Assembly (NCBI GenBank): GCA_013821425.1
Contig: JACDGV010000001.1
Span: 62,001 to 126,000, forward strand
From: Nitrosospira sp.
Lineage (GTDB): Bacteria; Pseudomonadota; Gammaproteobacteria; Burkholderiales; Nitrosomonadaceae
Direction: 5' to 3'
DNA: 64,000 nt
Part shown: piece after piece, positions 20,871 to 39,866 of the stretch
Position numbering within the stretch: the stretch's first letter is position 1
How the letters are laid out: every line of letters starts with the position of its first letter
Position numbers and translations under genes: made by a program
The notes under the pieces: model-generated
What the model saw: the letters and a program-made list of their open reading frames with translations, nothing else
Databases searched by the model: none
What the model was told of the DNA's origin: nothing

Positions 20871-20883
20871 CGGAATCAGCCGC

Positions 20884-22041: not shown

Positions 22042-22884
22042 ATGAATCCGGCATTCATACGCAATGCAATGACCGTGGACGTAGAGGATTATTTCCAGGT
22101 TTCAGCTTTTGCATCCCATATTCCAAGGGAGGCGTGGATGTCCATATCCTGTCGTATAGAATCCAATATGGACCGCATCATGGCCTTGCTGGATGAGGAA
22201 GGCGCAAAAGCCACTTTCTTTACGTTGGGATGGATTGCCGAGCGTTATCCTTCCATGGTAAAGCGCATTATCGCGAATGGCCATGAGCTTGCCAGCCACG
22301 GATGGGCCCATCATCGTGTTTCTGATCAGCAGCCCAGTGAATTTGGCGAGGATATTACCCGAAGCAAGGCGCTTCTCGAGGATATCAGCGGCCAGGCGGT
22401 GCTAGGTTACCGGGCGCCAAGTTTTTCAATTGGCCGGCATAACCAGTGGGCATTGGATATTCTGGAAGAGGCAGGCTATCGCTACAGTTCCAGTATTTAC
22501 CCTATCCAGCACGATCATTACGGCATTCCCGATGCTCCCCGTTTCGCCTATTACCCCCGCAGCAATGGAAGATTGCTGGAATTGCCTATTACGACGATGC
22601 GTCTTTTCAGGCGGAATATTCCCGCGGGCGGCGGGGGTTATTTCCGGCTTTGGCCTTACCCGGTTTCAAGATGGTTCCTGAAGAGATTGAACCAACGGGA
22701 GCAGCGCTCCGCCATCTTTTATTTCCATCCTTGGGAAATAGACCACGAGCAACCGCGTCAAAAGGGCATCAGCATGAAAACACGCTTCCGCCATTATCAC
22801 AATCTTCACCGTATGGAAGCGCGGGTCAAAGCCCTCACTCGCGATTTCACGTGGGATCGCATGGATCGTATCTTTCTGGAATAA
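22042..22884 (+). CDS. XrtA-system polysaccharide deacetylase (NodB domain)
   Basis: Carbohydrate esterase family 4 enzyme expected to remove acetyl groups from the exopolysaccharide. The 280-residue protein has NodB motifs TVDVEDYFQV (catalytic Asp and metal Asp), HELASHGWAHHRV (metal His pair), YRAPSFSI, and a C-terminal FYFHPWEID motif. The ATG at 22042 is chosen because the family normally starts just before TVDVEDY and a GGGGAT lies upstream; an in-frame ATG at 21913 would add 43 residues without similarity. No signal peptide is evident, as in other members of this family. Confidence 0.93.
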   Translation: MNPAFIRNAMTVDVEDYFQVSAFASHIPREAWMSISCRIESNMDRIMALLDEEGAKATFFTLGWIAERYPSMVKRIIANGHELASHGWAHHRVSDQQPSEFGEDITRSKALLEDISGQAVLGYRAPSFSIGRHNQWALDILEEAGYRYSSSIYPIQHDHYGIPDAPRFAYYPRSNGRLLELPITTMRLFRRNIPAGGGGYFRLWPYPVSRWFLKRLNQREQRSAIFYFHPWEIDHEQPRQKGISMKTRFRHYHNLHRMEARVKALTRDFTWDRMDRIFLE

Positions 22885-22891
22885 GACGGGA

Positions 22892-23980: not shown

Positions 23981-23984
23981 GGTA

Positions 23985-25262
23985 ATGCAGGAGCTTCTTT
24001 ATCTTGTTCACCGGATCCCCTACCCCCCGAATAAGGGTGACAAAATACGGTCTTATCACTTGCTCAAGTATTTGAGCCGGCACTATCGTATCCATCTCGG
24101 TACCTTTGTCGACGACCAAAATGACCTGAAATACCTCGACACCGTCAGGGATTTTTGCGGCGACACTTTTTTTGCGAATCTCCGCCCAACAGCTGCGCGC
24201 TTGCGCAGTCTGTATGGCCTGGTTTCCCGCGGGCCGCTCACCTTGCACTATTACCAGGACAAAGGATTGCAGGATTGGGTGAATGATGTGCTTCAAAGGA
24301 GGCCGATCAAAAAGGTACTGGTTTTTTCCTCGGCCATGGCACAGTACGTCCGCCGTGCTGGCGGTATCCGTCGCATCATCGATTTTGTCGATATTGATTC
24401 CGATAAATGGATGCAGTACGCAGCTACCACGAAATGGCCAATGAACTGGATATACAGGCGCGAATCCAGATTGCTGCTTGGCTATGAAAGACAAGTGGCG
24501 CAGGAGTTCGACAGCGCAACCTTTGTTTCCGAGAAGGAGGCCGAATTATTCAAGCGACTTGCCCCGGAAGCCGCCGCCAAGGTGAATTATTTCAACAATG
24601 GAGTCGATGCGGACTATTTCTCGCCACAAAATCTCTATCCTGATCCTTATCCGGTTGGCGTTGACCCCGTGGTGTTTGTGGGCGCGATGGATTACTGGGC
24701 GAATATTGACGCGGTCGACTGGTTTGTGCGCACCGTACTACCCGTTGTCCGGGCGTGTTTGCCGAAGGTTCGGTTTTATATTGTCGGCGCACGCCCCACC
24801 GCTGCTGTATTGGCCCTGGCCAGCGTTGAAGGGGTCTGCGTAACTGGTTCGGTGTCGGATGTCCGGCCTTACCTTGCCCATTCAGCCCTCGCAGTAGCAC
24901 CATTAAGGATCGCTCGTGGGGTACAGAACAAGGTGCTGGAGGCAATGGCCATGGAAAAAATCGTTGTTGCTTCACCTCAAGCTGCGGAGGGCATATGCGC
25001 TATTCCGGGTCAGGAACTGGTAGTGGCTAACGATAAGATTACATTTGCCAGTCGGGTCATCGCTACTCTCCAAGCCGGACCTGAACTGAAGCGTGAGATG
25101 TGCCTGGCCGCCAGAGTCCGGGTTCTGGAAAGTTACAGCTGGGAAAAAAACCTGAAACGACTTGGGTCGCTTCTGTCCCGGCCGCAAGGAATTCATGCCG
25201 TTAACGGCTTACGGTCTGATCCGCAACGCCACTTCCTCCCCATCGGAGATGATGCCGCATGA
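23985..25262 (+). CDS. TIGR03087-type PEP-CTERM/XrtA-system glycosyltransferase
   Basis: A 425-residue GT4-like glycosyltransferase. It begins MQELLYLVHRIPYPPNKGDK, the hallmark of this exosortase-linked family. The GT-B C-terminal half has VVFVGAMDYWANIDAVDWF, then the nucleotide-sugar binding region LAPLRIARGVQNKVLEAMAM with the EX7E-like segment. Donor sugar is not predictable. Its stop overlaps the exosortase start in an ATGA arrangement, coupling the two. Confidence 0.93.
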   Translation: MQELLYLVHRIPYPPNKGDKIRSYHLLKYLSRHYRIHLGTFVDDQNDLKYLDTVRDFCGDTFFANLRPTAARLRSLYGLVSRGPLTLHYYQDKGLQDWVNDVLQRRPIKKVLVFSSAMAQYVRRAGGIRRIIDFVDIDSDKWMQYAATTKWPMNWIYRRESRLLLGYERQVAQEFDSATFVSEKEAELFKRLAPEAAAKVNYFNNGVDADYFSPQNLYPDPYPVGVDPVVFVGAMDYWANIDAVDWFVRTVLPVVRACLPKVRFYIVGARPTAAVLALASVEGVCVTGSVSDVRPYLAHSALAVAPLRIARGVQNKVLEAMAMEKIVVASPQAAEGICAIPGQELVVANDKITFASRVIATLQAGPELKREMCLAARVRVLESYSWEKNLKRLGSLLSRPQGIHAVNGLRSDPQRHFLPIGDDAA

Positions 25263-26836
25263 GCGCGCAAGCCCCGCAAGAGGTCACGCACCAAGCTGTA
25301 ACCCGGGATCAGCAAAATGTGAAAGTCGCGGCCTTGCTCACCATTGCTACGATAACGGCAATACTGGCCGGCTACTTCGAAACCACCTGGTCCATGGTAT
25401 CGATATGGGAGCGATCCGAGACATTCGCCCATGGCTTTCTGATCTTTCCCTTCAGCGCATACCTAATTTGGGGACAGCGCAAGTATCTCGGTACGTTTTC
25501 TCCCCAGCCAAGCCCTGTGGGTCTGATTGCGCTGGCCGCACTGGGTTTCAGCTGGCTGCTGGCGACCCTTGCCAGCGTTCAGGTGCTCGAGCAATTTTTT
25601 TTGATAACCATGATTCCGGCCGCCGTATGGGCCATTCTTGGGAATCGGATGGTCTGGGCTCTGGCCTTTCCGTTGGCTTATCTCCTGCTCGCAGTACCGT
25701 TCGGTGAGGCATTTATTCCACCGCTGATCGATTTCACTGCCGACTTTACCATAAAGGCGTTGCAGTTGACCGGTATTCCCGTTTATCGGGAAGGCAGTTT
25801 TTTTACGATTCCGAGCGGGAATTGGTCGGTGGTCGAAGCGTGCAGCGGCTTACGCTATCTGATTGCTTCCTTTACCCTGGGTACTCTATATGCCTACCTG
25901 ACATATCGCAGCCTGACGCGCCGCCTGGTTTTCATCGCACTCTCGGTAGTTGTGCCCATCATTGCGAATGGCATTCGTGCGTATCTGATAGTCATGACAG
26001 GGCATCTGAGCGACATGAGTCTGGCAGTCGGTGTGGATCATCTCATTTATGGCTGGATATTCTTCGGTTTCGTGATGTTATTGTTGTTCTGGATCGGTTC
26101 GTTCTGGCGGGAGGACGACAAGAAGGATGACGTATGCCTAGCAGACCCGCAGCAGGGGGCGCACATTCCCGGCGGCGGCAATTCCCGCCAGCGTACTGTG
26201 CTTGCCGCTGGAACCGTCCTTGCCGTCGCGTTTATATGGCCGTTATTTGCCGCCTACCTGGATGGGGACCTTCCTGTTGACGTGGAGTCCACAATTGAAA
26301 TCGCCGACGTATCTGAAAAATGGCGGAGAGATCCAGGTCATGTCTCCGACTGGAATCCCAGATACGTAGGCGCCACTTCCGAACTACGGAGAAGCTATCG
26401 CCACAGCGGAAATTCCGTGGATCTTTATATCAGTTATTACCGTAATCAGCAGCAGGGCGCCGAATTGGTTAGCTCGGAAAATGTGCTCGTACCCGAATCA
26501 GAGTCTTACTGGCGGAATGTAAGGGAGGACGTGCGCAATGCATCCCTTCGTTCGAGGCAGCTGACCCTCAACCAGAACCAACTGGGCTCACCTTCAACGA
26601 AACTGCTGGTATGGAGATGGTATTGGCTTGGCGACGAAAGCACCGCCAGCCCATACCTCGCCAAATTTGTTCTAGCCAGGAATAAGCTGCTGCGCCGCGG
26701 CGATGAGGGAGCAGAGATTATTATTGCCACCTCTTACGAAGACAAGCCTGATGACGCTGCTTCCGTTCTTCAAGATTTCATTGCCGATATGATGCCAGCG
26801 ATCATGACGGGACTTGAGAATGCGAATGCCCGCTAG
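25259..26836 (+). CDS. xrtA: Exosortase A with fused EpsI domain
   Basis: Polytopic inner-membrane transpeptidase-like enzyme that recognises C-terminal PEP-CTERM signals and processes proteins for export to the surface matrix. The first 285 residues hold about eight membrane helices and the catalytic residues Cys195 (VVEACSGLRY), Arg240 (NGIRAYLIV) and His261 (GVDHLIYGW). After another membrane helix near residue 320, the last 200 residues form a periplasmic EpsI domain, a fusion known for exosortase A. No protein carrying a C-terminal PEP motif was found in this window, so substrates must be elsewhere. Confidence 0.96.
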   Translation: MSAQAPQEVTHQAVTRDQQNVKVAALLTIATITAILAGYFETTWSMVSIWERSETFAHGFLIFPFSAYLIWGQRKYLGTFSPQPSPVGLIALAALGFSWLLATLASVQVLEQFFLITMIPAAVWAILGNRMVWALAFPLAYLLLAVPFGEAFIPPLIDFTADFTIKALQLTGIPVYREGSFFTIPSGNWSVVEACSGLRYLIASFTLGTLYAYLTYRSLTRRLVFIALSVVVPIIANGIRAYLIVMTGHLSDMSLAVGVDHLIYGWIFFGFVMLLLFWIGSFWREDDKKDDVCLADPQQGAHIPGGGNSRQRTVLAAGTVLAVAFIWPLFAAYLDGDLPVDVESTIEIADVSEKWRRDPGHVSDWNPRYVGATSELRRSYRHSGNSVDLYISYYRNQQQGAELVSSENVLVPESESYWRNVREDVRNASLRSRQLTLNQNQLGSPSTKLLVWRWYWLGDESTASPYLAKFVLARNKLLRRGDEGAEIIIATSYEDKPDDAASVLQDFIADMMPAIMTGLENANAR

Positions 26837-28025
26837 CTGCCCGCCCCCCGGCGTAAAAATCGTGAGTAATGCCCAGCGGCCTCCCCTGATTGTCCACGTT
26901 ATTTACCATCTTGGGATCGGCGGCCTCGAAAACGGCCTTGTAAACCTGATCAATCATATTCCGCCTGACCGTTACCGTCACGCCATCGTCTGCTTGAAGG
27001 GTTATTCGGACTTTCGCCTGCGAATCAAGAGAGAGGATGTGGAGATAGTGGCTTTGCATAAGAGCGAGGGGCAAGACTTCGGACTTTATTTCAATCTCTT
27101 CAAGACACTCAGGCGGCTGAAGCCCGATATCGTGCACACTCGCAACCTTGGCACAATTGAGGGTCAATTAATTGCAGCTTTTGCAGGGGCGCGGGTGCGA
27201 GTGCATGGAGAACACGGCCGGGACGTATTCGACCTGTATGGAAAGAGCCGAAAATACAACTTGCTACGGAAAGCGATTCGTCCCTTCATAAATCATTTCA
27301 TTGCTGTCAGCAGGGACCTGGAAAACTGGCTCGCCACTACGGTTGGAGCGACGCCCCATCGCATCAGTCAGATCTACAATGGGGTCGACAGCCAGCGCTT
27401 TTATCCGCGTCTGCGAGAAGGTTCTGCGACCACTGTTTTGCGAAACGTGCCGGACGGATTTTTTACAGAAGATACGTTTGTCATTGGCAGCGTGGGCAGA
27501 ATGACGGACGTGAAAAATTTTCCCAGCCTGATCCAGGCTTTCCTCATGCTGATAAAAGAAGTGCCCGCGGAGCGAGAGAAACTGCGTCTCGTAATCGCCG
27601 GCGATGGAAACTCACGGCAGGCATGTCTCGATATGTTGTCCGAAGCCGGTGCGGCCGGCTTTGCCTGGCTCCCCGGCGAGCGCGCGGATATTCCGGATCT
27701 TATGCGCGCCATGGACCTGTTCGTGCTTCCCTCTCTGGGCGAGGGAATCTCGAATACAATCCTTGAAGCAATGTCCACCGGCTTGCCGGTGGTGGCGACC
27801 CGGGTGGGGGGGAATGCTGAAATCGTTCAGGACGGTGTTACGGGAATACTCATTCCTCCAGCGGAGCCGGAGGCGATGATGAGAGCGTTACTGCACTATT
27901 ACCGGAACCCGGGTTTAGTCGCTGAACACGGCAGAGCGGCGCGACAACAGGTCGAGACCCGCTTCAGCATGGAGGCCATGACGCAAGGCTATATCGGGGT
28001 TTACGACAAGGCCCTGCAATCCTAG
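26820..28025 (+). CDS. TIGR03088-type PEP-CTERM/XrtA-system glycosyltransferase
   Basis: A roughly 400-residue GT4 glycosyltransferase of the exosortase A locus. The N-terminal motif HLGIGGLENGLVNLINHIP and the C-terminal EX7E-type segment LPSLGEGISNTILEAMSTGLPVVATRVGG are diagnostic. The ATG at 26820 overlaps the xrtA end by 17 bases; GTG 26862 (starting just before NAQRPPLIVHVIYHL) is an equally reasonable start. Donor and acceptor are not predictable from sequence. Confidence 0.93.
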   Translation: MRMPASCPPPGVKIVSNAQRPPLIVHVIYHLGIGGLENGLVNLINHIPPDRYRHAIVCLKGYSDFRLRIKREDVEIVALHKSEGQDFGLYFNLFKTLRRLKPDIVHTRNLGTIEGQLIAAFAGARVRVHGEHGRDVFDLYGKSRKYNLLRKAIRPFINHFIAVSRDLENWLATTVGATPHRISQIYNGVDSQRFYPRLREGSATTVLRNVPDGFFTEDTFVIGSVGRMTDVKNFPSLIQAFLMLIKEVPAEREKLRLVIAGDGNSRQACLDMLSEAGAAGFAWLPGERADIPDLMRAMDLFVLPSLGEGISNTILEAMSTGLPVVATRVGGNAEIVQDGVTGILIPPAEPEAMMRALLHYYRNPGLVAEHGRAARQQVETRFSMEAMTQGYIGVYDKALQS

Positions 28026-28048
28026 CCAAGAATAAGGAAAACAATAGC

Positions 28049-29983
28049 ATGTGTGGCATCGTTGGACTGTTTGATACGCGTGGAAAAAAGGAAATCGACC
28101 GGCAGCTGCTTGGGCGCATGAATCAGATCCAGCTTCATCGCGGGCCGGATGAAGGCGAGCTATACACCGAACCAGGCGTCGGCCTGGGCCATCGCCGATT
28201 GTCCATCATGGATGTATCCAGCGGGCAGCAGCCGCTATTCAACGAGGATGGTAGCGTAGTTGTCGTTTTCAATGGCGAAATCTATAACTTTGAGGAACTA
28301 GCCAAGGAGCTCAGTGCCCTGGGTCACGTGTTTCGTACGCATTGCGATACTGAAGTGATTGTGCATGCCTGGGAAGAGTGGGGTGAACGGTGCGTAGATC
28401 GCTTCCGGGGCATGTTCGCTTTTGGTTTATGGGACCGAAACCGCGAAGTTCTGTTTCTAGCCCGTGACCGCCTTGGCATCAAGCCACTCTATTATGGCCT
28501 GCTCAAAGGAGGCATGCTCATCTTTGCGTCAGAACTCAAGGCACTGCTGGCTCACCCCGACTTTGTCCGGGACCTGGATTCCCCCGCGATAGAAGAGTAT
28601 TTTGCTTATGGGTATGTACCCGAGCCCAAAACCATATTCAGGCACGCTTTCAAGCTATCCCCAGCGCATACGCTGACGATCAGGCGCGGGCAACCCCTGC
28701 CGGCCCCTTGCCAATACTGGGATGTGCCGTTTATTCCACATGATCCAATGACGGTGCAAGAGGCGCAGGAAGAATTGATTGCCCGCTTTCGTGAATCGGT
28801 AAAGATACATCTGATGACCGAGGTGCCCCTGGGCGCTTTCCTGTCGGGGGGTGTCGACTCAAGCGCGGTGGTTGCGATGATGGCCAACCTCATGGAAGAA
28901 CCGGTCAATACGTGCTCCATCTCTTTCGGCGACCCCGCGTTCAATGAATCCCAGTACGCGCAAAAGGTTGCTGACCGCTACCGGACCCACCACGATGTGG
29001 AGCAGGTGGGCCAGGATGATTTCGACCTGATAGACAAGCTGGCATTTCTGTACGACGAGCCGTTTGCCGATAGCTCGGCCATGCCGACGTACCGGGTTTG
29101 CGAGCTAGCCAGAAGACGGGTAACGGTTGCCCTGTCGGGAGACGGGGGCGATGAGAATCTTGCTGGATACCGCCGGTATCGCTGGCATCTTTATGAAGAG
29201 CGAATGAGGTCCATGCTGCCGCTGGGATTTCGTAAGCCGTTTTTCGGCTTGCTAGGAAGCCTGTATCCAAAAGCTGACTGGGCACCAAAGCTCTTGCGCG
29301 CAAAATCTACCCTGGAAGCCTTGGGCCGCGATTCCGTCGAAGGGTACTTTCACAGTGTTTCGATCATGAAGGACAGTATGCGCCAGCGCCTGTTCAGTGC
29401 TTCCTTCAAGCGTGATCTTCAGGGGTACGAGGCGGTCGAAGTGCTGCGCTTGCATGCCCGGAAATGCCCGGTGCAGGATGCGCTTTCCCGCGTGCAATAC
29501 CTGGATATGAAAACCTATCTGGTGGGAGATATTCTTACCAAGGTGGACCGTGCCAGCATGGCACACGCGCTGGAGGTGCGCGTGCCGCTCCTGGACCATA
29601 AACTGGTCGAGTGGATGTCGGGCCTTCCAGCTTCGTTAAAGCTTCAAGGTCACGAGGGTAAATATGTTTTCAAGAAGGCGCTGGAGCCTTATCTTCCTGA
29701 CGACATCCTTTATCGCGACAAAATGGGATTTGCGGTACCCCTGGCCAGTTGGTTTCGGGGCCCGCTGCGGCAACGACTGAATAACGCATTAATGGATCCC
29801 GTTCTCGCGGACACTGGCTTGTTCAACAGGAGCTTTATAAAGGAGATGCTGGATCAACACCAGTCGGGAAGACGCGATCATAGCGCTTCGCTGTGGACGT
29901 TATTAATGTTCCAGTCATTCCTGCGCAACGTGCTGTACGGCGAGCAACCACGATCAATCAGGACGGATCTGAAGGTAGCGTAA
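28049..29983 (+). CDS. XrtA/PEP-CTERM-system amidotransferase (asparagine synthase-like)
   Basis: A 644-residue class II amidotransferase of the TIGR03108 type. The Ntn-hydrolase domain starts directly with Cys2 (MCGIVGLFD) and has RGPDEGELY and GHRRLSIMD. The synthase domain has the ATP PP-loop FLSGGVDSSAVVA and the downstream motif ALSGDGGDENLAGYRRYRWH. Related AsnB enzymes make asparagine, but members within exosortase loci are presumed to amidate a carboxyl sugar or another envelope component. It starts 23 bases after the glycosyltransferase. Confidence 0.94.
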   Translation: MCGIVGLFDTRGKKEIDRQLLGRMNQIQLHRGPDEGELYTEPGVGLGHRRLSIMDVSSGQQPLFNEDGSVVVVFNGEIYNFEELAKELSALGHVFRTHCDTEVIVHAWEEWGERCVDRFRGMFAFGLWDRNREVLFLARDRLGIKPLYYGLLKGGMLIFASELKALLAHPDFVRDLDSPAIEEYFAYGYVPEPKTIFRHAFKLSPAHTLTIRRGQPLPAPCQYWDVPFIPHDPMTVQEAQEELIARFRESVKIHLMTEVPLGAFLSGGVDSSAVVAMMANLMEEPVNTCSISFGDPAFNESQYAQKVADRYRTHHDVEQVGQDDFDLIDKLAFLYDEPFADSSAMPTYRVCELARRRVTVALSGDGGDENLAGYRRYRWHLYEERMRSMLPLGFRKPFFGLLGSLYPKADWAPKLLRAKSTLEALGRDSVEGYFHSVSIMKDSMRQRLFSASFKRDLQGYEAVEVLRLHARKCPVQDALSRVQYLDMKTYLVGDILTKVDRASMAHALEVRVPLLDHKLVEWMSGLPASLKLQGHEGKYVFKKALEPYLPDDILYRDKMGFAVPLASWFRGPLRQRLNNALMDPVLADTGLFNRSFIKEMLDQHQSGRRDHSASLWTLLMFQSFLRNVLYGEQPRSIRTDLKVA

Positions 29984-30143: not shown

Positions 30144-31106
30144 ATGCTGGATGTGTTTCTTACGGTTGACGTAGAGGTATGGTGTGACGGCTGGGAGGAT
30201 ATCGATGCCAAGTTTCCTGATGCCTTTAAACGTTATATTTACGGCCCCACCTCCCGAGGGGACTTTGGCTTGCCTTATCAATTACGACAACTTCAGGACC
30301 ACGGCCTGACAGCGGTATTCTTTGTCGAGCCCCTGTTCTCGACCCGATTCGGGCTGGACCCCTTGGCGGAAATCATCAATTTGATTCGCCAAGGAGGCCA
30401 GGAAATACAGCTTCATCTGCACACGGAATGGGTGGATGAGTCCAGGGAACCCCTGCTTGACAATATCGCTGGCAAGAGACAGTTTCTACGCTACTTTTCC
30501 TTGCGGGAGCAAACGATACTGATTCAGGCGGGTGCGGAGTTGATTGAATCTGCGGGCGGGGAGAGCATAAACGCCTTCCGTGCGGGGAGTTTTGGTTTCA
30601 ATCGGGAAACGCTCCAGGCGCTATCCGTAAACTGTATTCCTTTCGATAGCAGCTACAACGCCAGTTTATTCGGTCTTGATAGCGGAATTAGTCCCGAAAT
30701 TCCGCTTGTGGAGCCGGCCGAGTATGAAGGCATTTGCGAGTATCCGATGACAGTATTTAATGGTGGCACCCGTTCCTTGCGCCACGCGCAACTGACTGCA
30801 TGCTCTTATCGCGAGATGGAAGGCTTACTTTGGCAGGCACTCGAGACGGATCGTAAAGCCTTCGTCATTCTCTTGCACAATTTCGAACTGCTCAATAGTG
30901 GAATGACCAGGCCGGATGATATCGTGGTCGCCCGCTTTCGCAAACTCTGCTCCTTTCTGGATCGTCATCGGGATTGTTTTCGGGTCCGTGGTTTTCATGG
31001 TCTGTCTCCCACGCCGGTACCTTTACAGCCCAGCCCGCTTACCTCGCCCATGTGGAAGACCGGGCTGAGAATGCTGGAGCAGGGCTTTCGCAGGAGATTT
31101 GGTTGA
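30144..31106 (+). CDS. Second polysaccharide deacetylase-like protein (NodB-related)
   Basis: A 320-residue protein of the polysaccharide deacetylase superfamily. It starts MLDVFLTVDVEVWCDGW, with the metal and catalytic acidic residues, then LHLHTEWVDE supplying the paired His, and AFRAGSFGFNRETL. Unlike the first deacetylase it has a large segment between motifs and a C-terminal LLHNFELLNSG motif, more like the WalW-type subgroup. No signal peptide is seen. It lies 160 bases after the amidotransferase and opens the less standard part of the locus. Confidence 0.85.
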   Translation: MLDVFLTVDVEVWCDGWEDIDAKFPDAFKRYIYGPTSRGDFGLPYQLRQLQDHGLTAVFFVEPLFSTRFGLDPLAEIINLIRQGGQEIQLHLHTEWVDESREPLLDNIAGKRQFLRYFSLREQTILIQAGAELIESAGGESINAFRAGSFGFNRETLQALSVNCIPFDSSYNASLFGLDSGISPEIPLVEPAEYEGICEYPMTVFNGGTRSLRHAQLTACSYREMEGLLWQALETDRKAFVILLHNFELLNSGMTRPDDIVVARFRKLCSFLDRHRDCFRVRGFHGLSPTPVPLQPSPLTSPMWKTGLRMLEQGFRRRFG

Positions 31107-31129
31107 ACCAGAACTGGAGATACCACCCC

Positions 31130-32044
31130 GTGTCCATGAAGATACGGCTGGGTGACAAGACGCTGCTTGCGCCCAAGTTGTGGTTACAGGTTCGGGAAGT
31201 GGGACTTGATGATGAACTTCCCCCGGTTGTAGAACCGCAGCCGCCATCGGAGCCTCTGCAAGCCGATAGTCAAGGCTTTCTGATCCGTTCGCTGGGTGTT
31301 GTCGGCCAGCAGCCAGTACTGAGAAGACAGCAAGAGTATCTTTGTTATGTACCTTCCCAGTACCCGCGTTATTACATCGACATGAGCCAGTCGTTCGAGG
31401 AATACAAAAGAAAATTTTCGTCGAAGACGCGTTCAACGCTCAGTCGTAAAGTGCGAAAATACGCAGAACATTGCGGCGGAACTATCTCGTGGCGGGTTTA
31501 TCATGCTGTTGAGGAAATGCCGGAGTTCTTCAGACTGGCGCGCGTCGTTTCGAGGATCACCTATCAGGAAAAGTTGCTTGATGCCGGATTGCCCGATTCG
31601 GAAGAGTTTCTGCATGAGATGGAACGGCTAGCCCAACAGGGGCGAGTGCGTGGATTCATCCTCTTTTATCATAACCAGCCCGTCTCGTACCTCTACTGCC
31701 CGGTTGATAATGGAGTACTTATCTATGCGTTTCTCGGATACGATCCTGACTACATGGATTTTTCGGTGGGTACGGTGTTGCAGTGGCTTGCCCTGGAGTA
31801 TCTGTTCGAGGAGCGGTCTTTTCGCTTCTTCGATTTTACTGAAGGCGAATCAGAGCACAAGAAACTGTTTGCGACCCATAGTGTTCAATGCGCAAATGTT
31901 TTTTTTCTGCGTAAAAGCTTGCGCAACATGCTCTTGCTGCATGCGCAAAGAACTGTCGATCGTTTCAGCAAATCAATGGGTGCCGCGCTTTATCAGTTCG
32001 GCCTTAAAACAATGGTGAAAAAACTGATGCGATTCGCCAAATGA
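31130..32044 (+). CDS. GNAT/FemAB-like acetyltransferase (Acetyltransf_6 type)
   Basis: About 304 residues, resembling CelD/BcsL-type GNAT proteins found in polysaccharide loci. The segment YKRKFSSKTRSTLSRKVRK around residue 90 corresponds to the conserved basic region, and YCPVDNGVLIYAFLGYDPDY plus FRFFDFTEGESEHKKLF to the C-terminal GNAT core. The GTG at 31130 has GGAGA nine bases upstream; ATG 31136 is the alternative. Longer frames reaching back into the deacetylase gene lack conserved sequence. It probably acylates a sugar amine of the polymer or its precursor (inference). Confidence 0.85.
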   Translation: MSMKIRLGDKTLLAPKLWLQVREVGLDDELPPVVEPQPPSEPLQADSQGFLIRSLGVVGQQPVLRRQQEYLCYVPSQYPRYYIDMSQSFEEYKRKFSSKTRSTLSRKVRKYAEHCGGTISWRVYHAVEEMPEFFRLARVVSRITYQEKLLDAGLPDSEEFLHEMERLAQQGRVRGFILFYHNQPVSYLYCPVDNGVLIYAFLGYDPDYMDFSVGTVLQWLALEYLFEERSFRFFDFTEGESEHKKLFATHSVQCANVFFLRKSLRNMLLLHAQRTVDRFSKSMGAALYQFGLKTMVKKLMRFAK

Positions 32045-32118
32045 GTGCCTGTTGCCATTAGATTTCCATTAGCTACGCCATTAGATGAAACGCAGGGAGG
32101 TAGTTCACCTCTGTAATA

Positions 32119-32156
32119 CCTTTGAACCATGTTTATACCTTATGCCTTTGAACCAT
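32119..32156 (+). repeat. Direct repeat CCTTTGAACCAT at the start of the methyltransferase gene
   Basis: Two identical 12-base copies at 32119-32130 and 32145-32156, 26 bases apart. It looks like a local tandem duplication spanning the proposed start codon, which makes the exact N-terminus uncertain. Confidence 0.6.
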
Positions 32157-32863
32157 ATTTCCATATGCCTATCAGAAAAATCGTAAAGCGCGTAGTCGAT
32201 GCCGAGTGGGTTGCTCGCATGATCGAGGTGTTGGATCGCCGATCCGACAACCGCATGACTGAGCTTGGAATGTTGAGTCAGGCATTCGAGTTTGTAAAAA
32301 TCAACCAGGTGATTGGAGATTACCTGGAATTTGGACTATGGCGGGGAAAGACTTTCGGCTACGCGCACAGGATGAAGCGCCGCTACCGTCGGAACGACAT
32401 GAAGCTATGGGGCTTTGACTCCTTTCAAGGATTACCTGATACCGGAGAACATCCCGATAATATCTGGCATAAGGGGCAGTTTGCCTGCACGCGCGAGGAA
32501 TTTCAGGTGATACTCGAATCACGCGGGTTTAAACCGTCGGAGTATGAACTGGTCGAAGGCTTCTATAACGAAAGCCTGAATGCTGCTACTCATCGTCGAT
32601 TCGCCGGGCGCAAGGCTGCGGTCATTTATATTGATTGCGATTTGTATGAGTCAACAATCCAGGTACTCGATTTTGTCCAGTCATATCTCGTTGACGGCTC
32701 GATCATCTGCTTCGATGATTTCTACAACTATAAGGGCGATCCCGAGCAGGGCGAGCAGAAAGCGCTGGCAGAATTCAGGCAAAAGCAAACGCGGGTGCGC
32801 GTTATTCCCTACATGGACTACGCGCCCCTTGGTAAATCGTTCATTTGCAGGATGAATGGTTAA
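32129..32863 (+). CDS. TylF/MycF-family O-methyltransferase-like protein
   Basis: A 244-residue class I SAM-dependent methyltransferase related to macrocin O-methyltransferase, an enzyme class that methylates sugar hydroxyls. Motifs: GDYLEFGLWRGKTF (SAM-binding), WGFDSFQGLPD, YIDCDLYEST and ICFDDFYNY (metal-binding Asp residues). The first codons coincide with a 12-base direct repeat CCTTTGAACCAT (32119-32130 and 32145-32156), so ATG 32165 is a possible alternative start. Role inferred: methylation of an exopolysaccharide sugar. Confidence 0.87.
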   Translation: MFIPYAFEPYFHMPIRKIVKRVVDAEWVARMIEVLDRRSDNRMTELGMLSQAFEFVKINQVIGDYLEFGLWRGKTFGYAHRMKRRYRRNDMKLWGFDSFQGLPDTGEHPDNIWHKGQFACTREEFQVILESRGFKPSEYELVEGFYNESLNAATHRRFAGRKAAVIYIDCDLYESTIQVLDFVQSYLVDGSIICFDDFYNYKGDPEQGEQKALAEFRQKQTRVRVIPYMDYAPLGKSFICRMNG

Positions 32864-32916
32864 CGGGATGATAGCCGGTTGTTCCCGCTTGGCACCGTAT
32901 AATCCGGCTGCGTACC

Positions 32917-34752
32917 ATGTTTGAATTCGATAAATACGAGAAGCACCTACATATTGATCGCGGACTTGCTCCGTTATCCCCTTATGTTCCCATACATGAC
33001 ATTGCAAGGATATCTTTGCTGATGTGGGGTGAGCATTGCGTGGAGTGTGCGGCGCCGAGCTGTTTTACCACCTGCGATCTCTACCAAAGCAGGCCGGATA
33101 GCCGATGCAGGCGCCTTACCTACGGCATGTATCGCAACCGCAGCTTTCCCTCCGCTCGGGGATATGGAGCGGAGATTGCATTCAAGAAGTGGGGCAAGAT
33201 CGAGGCTCGCGGGAATACGCTGATGCTACCCGCGGCCGTGACGCTGTTAATGGAAAGGGTAATTGGCTTGTCCGCACCGCTGGTTAACGCTGCCGGATCA
33301 TTTGCATACCGCCTGACCCGCGACGCTCGCTGGTCATACCTGGAGCAAGCCATTCTGGAACGCTTTACCCGCTGGCTTCATCGCCAGAGTAATGCAAATT
33401 CCAGACTGCAACCGGATGCCTTCTTGCTCGAAGTCTACAATCCAATGGATGTTCCGGTGCGGATGCACCTGAACATGGCGGTTGCTGCCGGGATGAACAA
33501 GGCTCCCCACTCCACCGGTCATCCGCCTCCATTCCGGTCGTCGGTAATCCTGCCGGCAGGGTACTCGTGCCATAAGTTCGGGCGCGAACAATTTTCAAAG
33601 GTCACGGATTGCGGTCTCCCGTTTGACGTCAGCATTATCCCTGACGGCGAGGACGTGGCCCGAATCGTTTTTCTCACCGCCGATTTTGTCGTTCGCCGCA
33701 ATGCTGCCGCGAGCGTCGAGGGTCCGGGCCAGCCAAAGATAAAGTGCGTGGTTTGGGATTTGGACAATACGATGTGGAATGGCATATTGCTTGAGAACGA
33801 AGCAGTGGCTTTGCGGCCGAAAGTGCTTGAGTTATTGCGTTTCTTTGATGAACGGGGAATCTTGCTGAGCGTCGCAAGCAAGAATGACGAGCCGAGCGCG
33901 TTGCGCCGTATGGAAGAATTGGGCATAGCGGATTTTTTCCTGTATCCCCAGATCAGTTGGCTGCCGAAGAGCGAGAGCATCAGGACAATAGCAGAGCAAC
34001 TTAACATAGGTTTGGATACCTTTGCTTTTATTGACGACAATCCATTCGAACTGGAAGAGGTATCACGAGCACTGAACGGAGTTTCTTGCGTGAACGCAGC
34101 CCATATTGATCAGCTATTCTCCAATCCTCGCTATCAAGGCACAGTCAGTGACGAGGCCAGGAAACGCAGCCGGTTTTATCGGGAAGAATTCGTACGTAAA
34201 AGGAGCGCGTCACAGTTCGGTTCGGATTACCTTGGGTTCCTGGCGTCTTGTGGAATAAAGTTGTATGTCGATCTTTATACGGATGACGATCTGGACCGCG
34301 TGTCTGAACTTGTTCAGCGTACCAACCAATTAAACTTTTCCGGGCGCAAATATCTCAGGAGCGAGATACTTCCGATACTTGCGGATAAAAAAGTCAGTAA
34401 ATATGTTCTCCGTTGTGCTGACAATTATGGCTCTTATGGCGCCGTGGGGTTCTGCATTGTAAGTTTCGCAGAGGATGAGATACGTGTTGAGGATTTCATG
34501 CTTTCATGCCGGGTTCAAGGGAGATTTATCGAACAGGCTTTCTTCAATTATCTCCTAAACGCTTACGAGGGCCCGAGGCCGCAGGGCCTATGGGTCAACT
34601 TCGAACCCACCGGCCGTAATATCCCGGCCCAGCAAGTGCTCGAAAGCCTGAATTTCCTCCCCTGCTCATCAGGTAAAGGCCTGCGTATCGACCTTAACTC
34701 TCACACGCTCGATTGCAATTTTATCTCGGTGCAGTCCTCGCCTGTGCAGTGA
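32917..34752 (+). CDS. FkbH-like HAD-IIIC family protein with unusual Cys-rich N-terminus
   Basis: A 611-residue protein. The FkbH core begins near residue 275 with the HAD motif VVWDLDNTMWNG, then LLSVASKNDEPSALRRM and FAFIDDNPFELEEV, and ends in a GNAT-like domain (LVQRTNQLNFSGRKY, MLSCRVQGRFIEQAFF). FkbH enzymes dephosphorylate a glycerate precursor and load it onto an acyl carrier protein. The first 270 residues differ from classical FkbH and contain Cys41, Cys44, Cys49, Cys53 and Cys64, a possible metal or Fe-S site. No acyl carrier protein gene lies in the window. Last plus-strand gene of the locus. Confidence 0.85.
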   Translation: MFEFDKYEKHLHIDRGLAPLSPYVPIHDIARISLLMWGEHCVECAAPSCFTTCDLYQSRPDSRCRRLTYGMYRNRSFPSARGYGAEIAFKKWGKIEARGNTLMLPAAVTLLMERVIGLSAPLVNAAGSFAYRLTRDARWSYLEQAILERFTRWLHRQSNANSRLQPDAFLLEVYNPMDVPVRMHLNMAVAAGMNKAPHSTGHPPPFRSSVILPAGYSCHKFGREQFSKVTDCGLPFDVSIIPDGEDVARIVFLTADFVVRRNAAASVEGPGQPKIKCVVWDLDNTMWNGILLENEAVALRPKVLELLRFFDERGILLSVASKNDEPSALRRMEELGIADFFLYPQISWLPKSESIRTIAEQLNIGLDTFAFIDDNPFELEEVSRALNGVSCVNAAHIDQLFSNPRYQGTVSDEARKRSRFYREEFVRKRSASQFGSDYLGFLASCGIKLYVDLYTDDDLDRVSELVQRTNQLNFSGRKYLRSEILPILADKKVSKYVLRCADNYGSYGAVGFCIVSFAEDEIRVEDFMLSCRVQGRFIEQAFFNYLLNAYEGPRPQGLWVNFEPTGRNIPAQQVLESLNFLPCSSGKGLRIDLNSHTLDCNFISVQSSPVQ

Positions 34753-34880: not shown

Positions 34881-37800
34881 TCATGAGCGACCGGAAATGA
34901 TTGCATGATCTGGGGTGGTGGGAACAAAGCGCGCATCGGCAGTTAATCCCGCTATTAGCAACAGATAAAAGAAGAAACTGAGGCGAGGCTCGTCGGCCCA
35001 GCTATTGAGCATACCTACGACGAGAAAGGCCGTGAATGACGCGCATAACACCAGACTGAGCGGGTCGTTTCGTAGCGCACGGGACAACCAGCGTACCATC
35101 GCGTAGGTGATGAGTGCGAGGAAACAGAAAAGCCCCAGCCAGCCTTGCTCGAAAAAAACGTTCAAGTACAGGTTTTCCACGTGCCACGGCAAATAGTTAT
35201 CGGTCGAAAAAAACCAATAGTGCATGCCACTGGAAAAATCGCCATTTCGAACCAGATTGGCGCCTGCCGCGTCAAACAGTGCGACGTTATCCACATCCAC
35301 TACTGTGCCGGGCTGACCATTGTAAATCGATAGCTTTATTGGCCGTGCGAACCGGCTTCCGGGGGGGCCAAAATCCTTGGCGTGAATTTGCGTTTCGTGA
35401 CGGGCCCAATCCCCATCAGGTGTATCGATTTGTAGCAGAGCGCTGGTACATGTATATGAATCAAGCAACGCTTTTTCGCACACAATCGCAGTCAAGGTTG
35501 CGTTCCTGGCATTGGTACGTAAATCCATCGTTAGCATGTATCGTTGCTCTGGCACAATTGCTACCGTCTGTTCGAAATATAGCGGGTCCCCGCTCCCGAG
35601 TCGCAGCACGCGGTTTTCCTTCTCGGTGACAAACGAGTAGGTTGCCGGACGAGAGGTCGTGCTTGAATTCCAGAAATAGGCTGATGGAAACGAGCCCAGG
35701 CCCATACCGAAGAACGATGCGTTCTGCATTCGAACAATATCCAGCACCTCTGCCCAATGGTCCACCCGTGTGCCCAGATCGCGTTCAGTTGATGCCCAAC
35801 GCGACTGGCTATATTCTCCGCTGAGAACAGGCCATGCGACGACTGCCGCGACTCCTGCGAACAGGATTACAGCGGTTATGTTGGAAAAGCGTTGCGCTTG
35901 CTCACGTAGCGCCAGCCGCGAAAAGCCCAGCAATACGACCAGTGTTGCCAATGCAAAGGCCGCCTGTCCTCCGCGCGAAAACGTCACCATCACACTATAC
36001 GCCCCCAGACTGTACAGCCCCACCGCCAGCACTGTAGCCCAGGCACGCCGTCGCTGCCAGGCAAACAGCGCCACGAATGGCAGCGCAGCAGTTAAATAAG
36101 CCTCTATATAGGCGCCTCCAACATGCATGCCCGGAAAAGGTCCAGTGATGCGATAATCGTTTTCGAAATTGAGAAGTCCCGGAAATGTCACGCGCTCCCA
36201 CAAGATATACCCTACCGTTCCTGCCAGACCCACTGTTATACCAGCAGCTAGTCGATACGCGGCGCGGTCCGGTTCTTCCCACTCAAGCGCCAAAAGTGGC
36301 ACGAACGCTAGAATAAATGCCAAGCCCTTCGCAACCCTTAGGGCATTGTAAGAACTGGTGTATTGGGAAAATGCATTATGATCCGGTGTAGACAGGGGCA
36401 ATATGCCTATGACCAAGCTGATTGCCGCCGATAGTACAAAAAGCGAAAGCAAAAGACGACCCGCTCCTCGTAGCGCGCGTTGGGCAGGCACCCGGGAAAT
36501 CCTGAGATAAGTTACGCCTACGGTAACCAGGAGCGCGGTATCGAATTCGGTCCAGAATAAACGGCCGCTCCATTGCGTCAAATCCAGCAGGGGCAACATG
36601 GCCGGTACGCACGCGAGCCAGAGTCCGGGTTGCCACCAGAGCAGTGCCGCATAAGTGAGGAGGGCTGCCAGAACCCAACTTGTATCAAGCGGAGAAGTCA
36701 ACGCAGCTACCGTCGCCGCACATATCACCGGTATACCAATAGCCACTGCCCAGGCAGGAGGGCGCTCGGTTGGAGTCAACGCAATCTGGGGCCGGGCAGA
36801 CAGCGGAGGTGAGCCGGGCTGAATCGTCGACAGTAAGTTCAGAAGCCAGTATGACGTCGTCGCTGCCCCTGCTGCTATCAAGATATTTGTTGGGTCAGGG
36901 TGCTTGCCGGCAACGAAGAGCTTTCCCGCTTCAATAACGCTTGCCAGTACTCCAGCAGCGACCGCGGGCCACCAGTAATTTGCTTTTGGCTTACCGGAGA
37001 GGCCAGCCCAACCCCATATCCATAGGCCAGCCCCGATGGGTAAATACAGTATAGCCTGAGACAATAGGCTTATTAGCGCCACTGTTTCCGTACTGAAGTA
37101 GTGGTAATAAAACGGTAGAAAGTTTACATTCTCAAGCCGCGTCCATCCCTCGGTTGTGCCCAGCCAACGGCCCGAAAACCAGCCGTTTAACCATATGACC
37201 GCACCGAGATAGGGAAAGGCGCCAAGTGCCAGCGCGGGACGAGCATGCTGCCGCAGCGAGCGCCAGTTTATACTGGGGGCCAGTTGTATCAGTCCAGCGC
37301 CTAGCATCATCCCTGCGGCCCGCGAAACGACCGACGCTCCCTGGCTGATGCCGGATGCAAGTGTCAGTTGCAAACCTTCAATCATTACGCCCAACATGGC
37401 TCCCGCTACCGCCGCTCCAAAGAGCGGAACATGCCGGCGCATGGGTCCAGAAACCAGCATGGCCAGCGGCGCCACCAGCAATGCTTCGGGAATCAGCCGT
37501 AAGATGCAATTTCCCCCGCATTGCGGCACAAATAGCCACCCAACGTTAGCTGACCCCAGTTTTGCCTTCCATTCGTCGTAAGACATTAAAAAATCGTAGG
37601 GAAATATACTGAGCACTGCATAGGCCAGCGCATATGCAATCAATACTGCATGCCGTGCCTGCGCCCCTCCATGAGATATCGTTTGTGCCAAATGCATGAG
37701 ACGAGCGCCAATTAGGGGCCAGAGCAAGATGCCCAACGCCGAGCCGACCAATTCGGCAAAGAGGTCATTCAGGGAGACAGTTCGTGGAGCAAAAAACTGC

Positions 37801-38132
37801 TGGGTAAATTCCACAGCCAGCGCAACCCCGGTCGCCAACACCAGCGACAGGAGCATACCGGTTACTACTACCAGAAGCCGCCGGCTTTCTCCCACCAACC
37901 ATCCGCAGACTAGTAGTCCGAAAGGGATATACAGGAGCAAGTTGGCCACCAGGTCGGCACGACTGCCCACGCCCAACTGCAGTAGGGGGATGTGCTGAAA
38001 ATTTGTCCAGGCTATGGAAAACGGAAGGTCATTCCAATGGAATGGAAGCAAGCTTCCATACACGATAAGTAACGCATAGCCCAGGGCCATCCGTGCCATC
38101 GTAGTCCTAACGAACTGTTTGTCCCCAGACAT
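34881..38132 (-). CDS. Giant VanZ-repeat / Wzy-type polymerase fusion membrane protein
   Basis: About 1083 residues with roughly 25 membrane helices. Residues 15-150, 165-290 and 320-440 look like three VanZ-like repeats sharing an IPFG/APLA/LPIG turn, an Ile/Val-Glu helix and a final Gly-rich helix. Residues 475-830 resemble the O-antigen ligase/polymerase (Wzy/WaaL) family, with MVTFSRGGQAAFAL. The large periplasmic loop holds a soluble insert of about 150 residues (840-985) that looks like a carbohydrate-binding jelly-roll (LVRNGDFSSGMHYW) before HVENLYLNVFFEQGWLGLF and the last helices. Likely polymerase or ligase for the neighbouring exopolysaccharide. The ATG at 38132 is preferred to the TTG at 38150. 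Confidence 0.85.
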   Translation of the reverse strand: MSGDKQFVRTTMARMALGYALLIVYGSLLPFHWNDLPFSIAWTNFQHIPLLQLGVGSRADLVANLLLYIPFGLLVCGWLVGESRRLLVVVTGMLLSLVLATGVALAVEFTQQFFAPRTVSLNDLFAELVGSALGILLWPLIGARLMHLAQTISHGGAQARHAVLIAYALAYAVLSIFPYDFLMSYDEWKAKLGSANVGWLFVPQCGGNCILRLIPEALLVAPLAMLVSGPMRRHVPLFGAAVAGAMLGVMIEGLQLTLASGISQGASVVSRAAGMMLGAGLIQLAPSINWRSLRQHARPALALGAFPYLGAVIWLNGWFSGRWLGTTEGWTRLENVNFLPFYYHYFSTETVALISLLSQAILYLPIGAGLWIWGWAGLSGKPKANYWWPAVAAGVLASVIEAGKLFVAGKHPDPTNILIAAGAATTSYWLLNLLSTIQPGSPPLSARPQIALTPTERPPAWAVAIGIPVICAATVAALTSPLDTSWVLAALLTYAALLWWQPGLWLACVPAMLPLLDLTQWSGRLFWTEFDTALLVTVGVTYLRISRVPAQRALRGAGRLLLSLFVLSAAISLVIGILPLSTPDHNAFSQYTSSYNALRVAKGLAFILAFVPLLALEWEEPDRAAYRLAAGITVGLAGTVGYILWERVTFPGLLNFENDYRITGPFPGMHVGGAYIEAYLTAALPFVALFAWQRRRAWATVLAVGLYSLGAYSVMVTFSRGGQAAFALATLVVLLGFSRLALREQAQRFSNITAVILFAGVAAVVAWPVLSGEYSQSRWASTERDLGTRVDHWAEVLDIVRMQNASFFGMGLGSFPSAYFWNSSTTSRPATYSFVTEKENRVLRLGSGDPLYFEQTVAIVPEQRYMLTMDLRTNARNATLTAIVCEKALLDSYTCTSALLQIDTPDGDWARHETQIHAKDFGPPGSRFARPIKLSIYNGQPGTVVDVDNVALFDAAGANLVRNGDFSSGMHYWFFSTDNYLPWHVENLYLNVFFEQGWLGLFCFLALITYAMVRWLSRALRNDPLSLVLCASFTAFLVVGMLNSWADEPRLSFFFYLLLIAGLTADARFVPTTPDHAIISGRS

Positions 38133-38522: not shown

Positions 38523-39866
38523 TTATTTCTTGCCAGCTAACGGCTTGATTGCCAATTCGGGTAGGCGGTTGGGCCGCTGCTTATCGAGCGCATAGGCGCC
38601 TAGCCGGCTTGCGCCATGTAAATCACCGTCGAAATCCAGGCCTGATTCGGGATAGGCGTGAAAGAAGGGGACATCGGCTGCATGTTTTCTCACTTTAACG
38701 GCCGGCATCAGGTTCATCTCGCCCAAAGGCGCAAACGGCCGAGCCAGGAAATCCCTGGCCTCGCCGAGTGTGCCCGTCAGGTTGCCCTCTGGGGGAGCGC
38801 CGCGCATGGGCGACTGGGCGAATACGATATTGGCAGTAACAACTTGTCGATCAGCCGGATCGTGCCTGCGCCGCAAAATCGTTATGCCGGACTTTTTTGC
38901 TATCACCGTATTGTTGAATATGCTTATTCTGCCCGGGCTGCCGTTATGTGGCTGGATGCGCACCGCGTCGCCGGAGTGGTTTACCAATAAATTATTGTAC
39001 AACGCGATATTTCCTTCGCCCTGGAACAACGATTCGTGCAGGTTCTGATGAAACAAATTACCGTAGACAAGGTGCCGGTCATTTGCACCCGGCCCCGTCA
39101 GCGGCCAATGCCCTACAAGCATATTGGGCCTCGCCATTTTTCTGGATCCGGCGCTTGCCTTGCTGAAAACGTTGTGCCTGACAATCGTTGCGCTGCCATC
39201 AGGCGGCATTTCGGGGAGAGCGGGCCGAGGCTGCTGGTGCTTGATCTGCACGTTATAGCCAATTGTGCCGACAATCAGATTGTGCTCGATCAACCCGGCA
39301 ATAAATGGTGCGCGCCCATCGGAATTACCAAGGTAGAGACCGGTTCCGGCGCGTTCAATCACATTGTTGCGAATTACCCAGCCCCATGCCGGGCATTTGG
39401 TTGAAATACCCGCAATATGTTGATTGTTGCCATGACCCCATATGCGTAGCCCGTCGAGCGTAATATGATGCGCCCAGTCAGCATGCCCTTCGCATTTCAC
39501 CCCATCGACCGGCAGATTCCGGCCATCCAGATCCAGATCGCGTATCGTGACGTAACTTGAATTAAGGATGCTAACCGTATTATGCCCCGGTCGTGCCACG
39601 AAAACCGCCCGGGGTTCCGAGTCCGGCCCGCGGATTACAATGGGTGCCTGTGCGGTGCCGCAAAGATGCCGGACCGGGAGCCCATCCTTGTATTCGCCCG
39701 GCATTAGTAGCAGGTTGCCCCCTGGTTCCAACGCCCTTAATCTCGCGAGATAGTTATCGGGGGTCGCCGTATAGGCCGGGTTGGCAAAAGAAGATGGGAT
39801 GCAAAATAGAACGCCTGCCACCGGCATGATCAATCGCAAAAAAAGAATACGAGTTAGTTTGATCAT
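38523..39866 (-). CDS. Secreted right-handed parallel beta-helix protein
   Basis: A 447-residue protein with a signal peptide ending near PSSFA-NP and a chain of short turns typical of a pectate-lyase-like parallel beta-helix: VTIRDLDLDG, ITLDGLRIWGHG, WVIRNNVIERAGTG, IALYNNLLVN, ISIFNNTVIAKKSG. Such folds occur in polysaccharide lyases, epimerases and hydrolases. It ends without a PEP-CTERM anchor. Its position beside the polymerase suggests action on the exopolysaccharide, but no catalytic residues can be assigned with confidence. Confidence 0.8.
   Translation of the reverse strand: MIKLTRILFLRLIMPVAGVLFCIPSSFANPAYTATPDNYLARLRALEPGGNLLLMPGEYKDGLPVRHLCGTAQAPIVIRGPDSEPRAVFVARPGHNTVSILNSSYVTIRDLDLDGRNLPVDGVKCEGHADWAHHITLDGLRIWGHGNNQHIAGISTKCPAWGWVIRNNVIERAGTGLYLGNSDGRAPFIAGLIEHNLIVGTIGYNVQIKHQQPRPALPEMPPDGSATIVRHNVFSKASAGSRKMARPNMLVGHWPLTGPGANDRHLVYGNLFHQNLHESLFQGEGNIALYNNLLVNHSGDAVRIQPHNGSPGRISIFNNTVIAKKSGITILRRRHDPADRQVVTANIVFAQSPMRGAPPEGNLTGTLGEARDFLARPFAPLGEMNLMPAVKVRKHAADVPFFHAYPESGLDFDGDLHGASRLGAYALDKQRPNRLPELAIKPLAGKK

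Follow-up and report, generated by a model that had tools for sequence, protein, structure and literature searches.

Three tandem VanZ-like domains fused to a predicted WaaL/Wzy-type domain with a CBM4-like insert: a conserved architecture found beside the XrtA/PEP-CTERM cluster of a Nitrosospira genome

First encountered in the context of glycopeptide resistance, VanZ proteins occur widely. In PMC12419801, the VanZ-Skillet clade is defined by a helical handle in the linker between helices H1 and H2 of a four-helix core, and the VanZ active site is given as an Asn in H2, a Glu in H3 and an Asp in H4, with the motif DxDDxxxN in VanZ-1. The same paper proposes that VanZ proteins cleave or exchange polyprenol-linked head groups, links VanZ-1 by gene neighbourhood or fusion to genes including WaaL-like ones, and describes duplicated VanZ-1 domains in betaproteobacteria, the C-terminal one being inactive (PMC12419801). 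A VanZ family gene and an O-antigen ligase gene are also reported from a capsule locus of Vibrio parahaemolyticus (PMC12323305), and PEP-CTERM proteins and exopolysaccharide have been linked to floc formation in the abstracts of two further papers (PMC9850573; PMC9012009). This study concerns one gene of a Nitrosospira genome (assembly GCA_013821425.1, contig JACDGV010000001.1, positions 62,001 to 126,000; this 64,000-nucleotide stretch is called the window hereafter), whose product is predicted to join three VanZ-like domains to a WaaL/Wzy-type domain and is referred to below as the fusion.

The fusion frame runs uninterrupted for 1083 codons from an ATG in the window translation, while the mechanically called open reading frame (ORF) opens at a TTG and spans 34881-38150. 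Judged from sequence and structure modelling, the product is a single large membrane protein consisting of three tandem VanZ/Lipocone-type domains (12 helices) followed by a WaaL/Wzy-fold domain, the large loop of which is split by a domain resembling a carbohydrate-binding module (CBM) of family 4. The full-length model reached a predicted local distance difference test score (pLDDT) of 89.5 and a predicted template modelling score (pTM) of 0.74. Each of these components is already known; their combination is shared by many related bacteria. As the original prediction had supposed, no description of a triple-VanZ, CBM-split architecture was found in the full-text literature searched, although the supplementary lists of PMC12419801, outside the scope of that search, may contain one. 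In that literature only PMC12419801 treats VanZ together with O-antigen ligases; the two terms also occur in PMC12323305, for the Vibrio locus named above, in PMC9484755, where the mentions are unrelated, and in PMC4971617, through the name of an author. The fusion is a concrete, conserved case of the VanZ-1/WaaL link noted there.

A scan for relatives, with one genome per species, matched 108, of which the best 80 were kept and 76 loci returned. The architecture aligns along its whole length in 66 further loci, giving an alignment of 67 rows with the window protein included; in one row over a fifth of copy 1 is missing. The remaining loci were omitted as probable near-duplicates of kept ones (L025 and L032), as cut at contig ends (L036, L071, L078, L084, L085 and L087), or as frames lacking a part: the 958-residue frame of L060 has no N-terminal motif and the 667-residue frame of L091 no VanZ part. 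Going by record titles, the hosts belong to the Nitrosomonadales, Rhodocyclales and Burkholderiales, with some in the Gammaproteobacteria. A full-length fusion was also seen on a short contig whose record is titled Limnochordia (L079), far from the other hosts, where contamination or misbinning is possible.

The N-terminal part had been predicted to hold three repeats of one plan, each with a turn (IPFG 69-72, APLA 221-224 and LPIG 364-367) and a motif-bearing helix (VEFTQQ 107-112, IEGLQL 251-256 and IEAGKL 400-405). All six motifs are present at these positions, and Pfam, the genome search, single-copy scans and profile-profile comparison agree in assigning the three repeats to VanZ. The Pfam VanZ profile (PF04892) matched the whole protein with 52.9 bits (E 7e-14) against a curated cut-off of 30.1, the opposite of the missing VanZ similarity that had been named beforehand as grounds for giving up the claim. 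When the genome was searched with the same profile, three separate places were matched within the fusion gene, one over the cut-off (E 3e-12) and two below it (E 1e-3 and 0.037). In single-copy scans of 34 of the 67 aligned rows, at E <= 0.1, copy 2 matched VanZ in all 34 and copy 3 in 25; the window's own copies fell below the cut-off, with 21.8 bits (E 3e-4) for copy 2 and 16.1 bits (E 0.018) for copy 3. Copies 2 and 3 are assigned to VanZ because their counterparts in relatives match and because the copies resemble each other in profile-profile comparison: copy 1 pairs with copy 2 at E 1.1e-8 (probability 95%) and with copy 3 at E 4.5e-7 (87%), copies 2 and 3 being the weakest pairing (E 1.8e-4, 23%). 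A chance likeness of membrane helices was ruled out as the source of the repeat by nine control comparisons of the VanZ copies with the protein's own Wzy segments, none of which exceeded a probability of 0.4%. The model of residues 2-442 (pLDDT 91.6, pTM 0.87) has the secondary structure H1/handle/H2/H3/H4 in each copy; the four helices and the H1-H2 handle are those of the VanZ-1/VanZ-Skillet Lipocone clade as described in PMC12419801.

Conservation differs from copy to copy. In copy 1, E108, Q111, R117, T118, N122 and D123 are present in 67 of 67 sequences and N64 in 66, so that copy 1 has an Asn in H2 (N64), a Glu-x-x-Gln in H3 (E108-x-x-Q111) and an Asp in H4 (D123), but without the full DxDDxxxN motif that PMC12419801 gives for VanZ-1. 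This set occurs in copy 1 only. Copy 2 has E216, E252, Q255 and S267 in all 67 sequences and no H4 Asp, S267 occupying the position of D123. In copy 3, E401 and D413 are likewise invariant, K404 is Lys in 64 sequences and Arg in three, and N416 (66 of 67) stands at the canonical H4 Asp position, while the H2 site bears no conserved polar residue. The fusion thus departs from the VanZ-1 Lipocone proteins in having three tandem copies with differing invariant pockets, two of them without the canonical Asp. Since these differences are fixed across the 67 sequences, copies 2 and 3 may be read as re-specialised rather than decayed, the pattern suggesting new roles.

The WaaL/Wzy-type (GT-C) region covers residues 460-1070. 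In agreement with the earlier claim of a Wzy/WaaL-like domain, WaaL of Cupriavidus metallidurans (7TPG_B) was superposed on the model over residues 499-1071 with Z 24.8 and a root-mean-square deviation of 4.7 (351 residues aligned), whereas the other 49 structure matches listed had Z <= 12.4 and were mostly carbohydrate-binding modules or beta-sandwich chains aligned mainly over the insert. A check against Wzy_C (PF04932) had also been proposed, and here the outcome was divided: the protein scan gave 28.5 bits, under the cut-off of 31.7, whereas the genome search gave 36.1 bits, over it, for profile positions 5-117 (C24:97673-98008), the last 24 positions (126-149) following after the insert at C24:97118-97189 as a weak match (14.1 bits, E 0.066). 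R661 and R720 are present in 67 of 67 sequences, and H984, within a Trp-His motif of the large loop, in 60. From their position in the Wzy_C motifs, these three residues are the putative counterparts of the WaaL catalytic residues. Roles for Arg and His are mentioned for WaaL/PglS in PMC12800693. The fold and, by motif position, the invariant arginines and the Trp-His motif are shared with WaaL/Wzy_C proteins, from which the fusion differs by the insert of approximately 160 residues that splits Wzy_C and by its 450-residue N-terminal VanZ extension.

The insert interrupts Wzy_C between profile positions 117 and 126, and the stretch with its borders measures 158-165 residues across the alignment of 67. 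The model shows it as a beta-sandwich whose strands span residues 832-977 at high pLDDT. The original prediction of a jelly-roll of carbohydrate-binding type in the large loop is borne out by this model, in which the nearest folds are CBM16 and CBM4; a disordered insert or an ordinary Wzy loop, either of which had been named as telling against it, was ruled out by the model and by the splitting of the profile around the insert. The top Foldseek matches were CBM16/CBM4 modules (E 4e-3, probability 1.0), with none at E <= 0.001. The CBM of PbXyn10C (4MGQ) aligned with Z 12.4 over 132 residues and was also recovered by a hidden Markov model (HMM) search against PDB (E 5.9e-6). Pfam at E <= 0.01 found no family, CBM_4_9 included, in the window's own insert; among the 67 members CBM_4_9 matched weakly in nine and CBM_4_9_1 in eight. 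The fold is that of CBM4/CBM16/CBM22 beta-sandwich modules, but unlike these the insert sits in the loop of a membrane glycosyltransferase and carries an invariant Cys pair. According to the strand borders in the model, C885 and C895 (invariant in the 67 rows) should face each other in a hairpin of neighbouring strands, which would suit a periplasmic disulphide. H984 lies at the insert's end.

From one modelled helix to the next, the loops alternate in mean net charge, which is positive in one of 13 loops on one side of the membrane and in 11 of 13 on the other; some helix ends were adjusted manually for this count. On this basis the insert, the VanZ handle loops, the H3-H4 loops with R117, D123 and D413, and the Arg/His loops of the WaaL/Wzy part would share one face, presumably the periplasmic one.

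The two halves of the fusion also exist apart. In a set of 61 genomes, made up of the window's own and those of 60 relatives, the full fusion was found in eight, the VanZ part alone in G014 and the Wzy-insert part alone in G051. The G014 protein (806 residues) has three stretches that match VanZ (E 2e-37), and is the only standalone protein in which three stretches were scanned for; its membrane tail is unrelated to Wzy, and the possibility that a hidden Wzy domain makes up the C-terminal half of the standalone protein was ruled out (probability 0.4%). The G051 protein (845 residues) can be aligned with the Wzy-insert part of the fusion; its Wzy_C match is weak (22.1 bits), and it has no VanZ match. 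In eight of 50 carrier genomes an additional match covers the Wzy-insert part alone, seven times in an open frame and once with stops. One Wzy-insert-only frame directly adjoins a fused gene on the same strand (G098:C354:14816-19947), a possible tandem duplication. Copy 1 of the fusion and copy 1 of the standalone protein are clearly homologous (E 1.2e-28), copy 3 finds its best match in copy 3 (E 9e-7), and copy 2 is ambiguous. The fusion may have arisen from two modules of separate existence, or the separate modules may stem from a fusion that broke up. The standalone proteins (L111:9179-11599, minus strand; same slot in L118-L134) end in a membrane domain of several helices, some 320 residues long, in which the motifs PYNxRE, TDNLxEL and KYxxxFSxxQFLL are conserved; in the L111 protein it matched no Pfam family at E <= 0.05, and the domain shows no likeness to the Wzy part.

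The fusion accompanies the XrtA system. XrtA and the ligase family TIGR03097 (PEP_O_lig_1) exceeded their cut-offs in exactly the same 30 of the 61 genomes, and the fusion was found in eight of these and in none of the other 31; outside Nitrosospira the counts are two of seven XrtA-positive against none of 31 XrtA-negative genomes (p 0.03, relatedness uncorrected). Fifty of the 76 carrier loci were checked for co-occurrence: XrtA was over its cut-off in 44 of the 50 genomes, and some exosortase was present in 47. This identical distribution speaks for a core role of the TIGR03097 ligase in the XrtA system. Because TIGR03097 occurs in 23 of 23 Nitrosospira genomes searched and the fusion in six of 23, TIGR03097 is the constant ligase of the system and the fusion an optional or alternative enzyme; to that extent the "dedicated" polymerase/ligase proposed originally does not hold. 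The fusion resembles TIGR03097 in being ligase-like and in belonging to the same XrtA system, with a weak match over 81 residues; at 26.5 bits against a curated cut-off of 188.1, its membership of the family was ruled out. The true TIGR03097 protein of the genome (526 bits, 445 residues) contains only Wzy_C and DUF5935 according to Pfam, and a phmmer search of it against PDB gave a single chance match to an antibody. The proposed survey of whether homologues always sit beside xrtA gave a negative answer: within flanks of up to 10 kb, many of them shortened by contig ends, xrtA was present at four of 76 loci, all in Nitrosospira (L019, L029, L032 and L037).

Taken together, the fusion would be a periplasm-facing inner-membrane GT-C glycan polymerase or ligase with a built-in VanZ module for the lipid carrier and a CBM for holding glycan, working in or beside the XrtA system, a reading held with a little better than even confidence. 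A lipid-linked glycan would first be flipped across the membrane, whereupon the WaaL/Wzy domain would take the glycan from undecaprenyl pyrophosphate (Und-PP), using R661, R720 and H984, and transfer it to another glycan (as a polymerase) or to a terminal acceptor (as a ligase). The CBM, beside the putative catalytic His, would keep the polysaccharide, whether growing chain or acceptor, in place. In the same membrane, with polar pockets on the face of the WaaL/Wzy loop, the VanZ tandem would bind an undecaprenyl-(pyro)phosphate head group, either that of the substrate or that of the Und-PP leaving group. Catalysis probably falls to copy 1, the one copy with the Asn / Glu-x-x-Gln / Asp pocket, which might cleave or transesterify the head group and so serve chain release, the recycling of the carrier or a transfer step; copies 2 and 3 would be non-catalytic but conserved binding sites. 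In addition to the TIGR03097 ligase, the enzyme would be an optional component working within the XrtA/PEP-CTERM exopolysaccharide system or alongside it. The flippase and TIGR03097 genes on the contig and the chain-length determinant, export protein and XrtA genes in the window are consistent with such a role. Of the two roles first offered for the VanZ part, sensing or handling the lipid, the copy-specific conservation and PMC12419801 speak for the second, as a putative role in handling polyprenyl-phosphate head groups or in catalysing a reaction on them.

Several observations weigh against this reading. The genome encodes a normal UppP/BacA, so VanZ-based recycling of Und-PP is not required, and the constant presence of TIGR03097 in Nitrosospira means that the transferase activity of the fusion may be redundant. 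Where XrtA and the fusion occur in one genome, xrtA lies on another contig in 28 of 44 cases and on the same contig, at 13-73 kb, in 16; in G076 the fusion is more than 230 kb from both contig ends, so it is unlinked to xrtA there. At the residue level, copy 1 reads SLND-xxx-E where VanZ-1 has the strict DxDDxxxN, and H984 is Arg, Asp or Asn in seven of 67 sequences, so that the catalytic assignment or the activity itself may vary. A Foldseek search of the VanZ part against PDB gave no meaningful solved structure, with no PTDSS or TelC among the matches listed, and is uninformative on the Lipocone fold either way.

It is somewhat unlikely that all three VanZ copies are catalytically dead and that the tandem serves as a membrane scaffold or lipid-binding platform which localises or regulates an ordinary Wzy/WaaL enzyme. 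The loss of the canonical H4 Asp, to an invariant Ser in copy 2 and to Asn in copy 3, would fit such a scaffold, as would the precedent of the betaproteobacterial duplications with an inactive C-terminal copy (PMC12419801) and the Gln that mostly stands in place of the copy 1 Glu in the standalone Nitrosospira set; copy 1 of the fusion, however, keeps E108, Q111, N122 and D123 in every row and N64 in all but one, unlike a decaying site. The two modules could also share no mechanism at all, having been two independently working neighbours that merged into one gene. The separate occurrence of the triple-VanZ part with another tail, of Wzy plus insert without VanZ (the L110 protein), and of further Wzy-insert paralogues with frames of 650-907 residues, which were not scanned for VanZ, agrees with this, but the retention of the fused form in Nitrosomonadales, Rhodocyclales, Burkholderiales and some Gammaproteobacteria suggests a useful coupling, and an accidental merger is thought quite improbable.

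A role centred on PEP-CTERM proteins deserves mention, although it too is considered unlikely: as a ligase or transferase, the fusion would mainly decorate PEP-CTERM proteins processed by XrtA, or their anchor, with glycan or lipid-glycan, VanZ supplying a lipid-linked acceptor. Its appeal comes from gene position. In the 19 Nitrosospira genomes compared, as well as in the window, a VanZ-bearing protein is encoded on the opposite strand in the slot bounded by the end of the XrtA cluster and the beta-helix gene, the match being weak in three (G009, G010 and G020) and the gene broken in one (G004). The slot is occupied by the fusion in G005 and G008, by both proteins side by side in G013, and by the standalone triple-VanZ-type protein elsewhere. 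Both of the VanZ genes detected in the window's genome, which are its only two, lie near an exosortase gene, one at about 9 kb and the other at about 200 bases, and the co-occurrence with XrtA given above points in the same direction. Against it, TIGR03097, a putative O-glycosylation ligase present in the same genomes as XrtA, already fits the role, and 22 of those 30 genomes lack the fusion. In G004 (L131, G004:C20:75000-93000), the standalone triple-VanZ gene lies in several pieces, one with an internal stop.

The preferred polymerase/ligase reading can be sharpened into a one-polypeptide assembly machine, in which the GT-C domain would polymerise or ligate an Und-PP-linked glycan gripped by the CBM, VanZ copy 1 would cleave or transesterify the carrier head group, and copies 2 and 3 would dock the lipid or head group. 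Within one and the same protein molecule, copy 1 would then act on the released Und-PP or on the finished chain. This more specific form is regarded as doubtful; if true, VanZ would gain a concrete partner reaction and a natural substrate. The persistence of the fusion in many genera connects VanZ with the lipid on which surface polysaccharides are carried; the leaving group of the fused enzyme should be undecaprenyl pyrophosphate. The fusion also offers a single protein in which E108/D123 of VanZ, R720/H984 of the GT-C domain and the CBM can be mutated separately, and it adds a component to the XrtA/PEP-CTERM exopolysaccharide system.

Table 1. Location of the fusion gene, its domains and the surrounding genes in the window
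Feature	Coordinates	Strand	Basis
Whole fusion gene, 3xVanZ - Wzy/WaaL with CBM4-like insert, 1083 aa	34881..38132	minus	ORF and alignment with 66 loci
VanZ copy 1, residues 15-150	37683..38090	minus	Pfam, conservation, profile-profile, model
VanZ copy 2, residues 160-295	37248..37655	minus	Genome profile search, conservation, profile-profile, single-copy scan
VanZ copy 3, residues 300-440	36813..37235	minus	Genome profile search, conservation, profile-profile, single-copy scan
Wzy/WaaL-type domain, first part, residues 460-820	35673..36755	minus	Pfam, genome search, WaaL fold match, conservation
CBM4-like beta-sandwich insert, residues ~822-985, strands 832-977	35178..35669	minus	Genome search, model, Foldseek, structure comparison, HMM, conservation
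Wzy/WaaL-type domain, last three helices, residues 988-1067	34932..35171	minus	Genome search, model, WaaL fold match
XrtA/PEP-CTERM exopolysaccharide cluster	15807..29983	plus	Profile searches
Deacetylase-like, GNAT, TylF methyltransferase and FkbH genes, XrtA cluster to fusion gene	30144..34752	plus	Pfam and profile scans
Right-handed beta-helix protein (Pfam Beta_helix), upstream of fusion gene	38523..39866	minus	Pfam and comparison

The XrtA cluster of the window (Table 1) encodes an export protein, a chain-length determinant, a Tyr kinase, a TIGR03016 outer membrane protein, an ATPase, a deacetylase, FemAB, two glycosyltransferases, XrtA (25259-26836) and an amidotransferase. A Wzx-type flippase and the TIGR03097 ligase are also encoded on the window's contig. 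The beta-helix gene keeps the same neighbouring position in the 19 Nitrosospira genomes compared. A comparison with plasmids gave no match.

The neighbourhood of the fusion is a surface-polysaccharide setting. The census behind this drew on 42 loci (between L020 and L072), from which a greedy length rule picked 109 ORFs 240-750 residues long; close Nitrosospira loci were skipped and later loci fell outside the residue limit. Asparagine-synthase-type proteins were the commonest neighbours outside the close Nitrosospira loci (11 of the 109 ORFs), followed by beta-helix proteins (6), two flippase models (5 and 5), GATase_7 (5), glycosyltransferase 4 family (4), VanZ (4) and PEP-CTERM (3). In the window's genome, the only other VanZ match (C45:79625-79849, in L113, G000:C45:74000-92000) lies approximately 200 bases from a second exosortase match that is below the XrtA cut-off (C45:80049-80831), and a further Wzy_C match and a flippase match are found within 7 kb of it.

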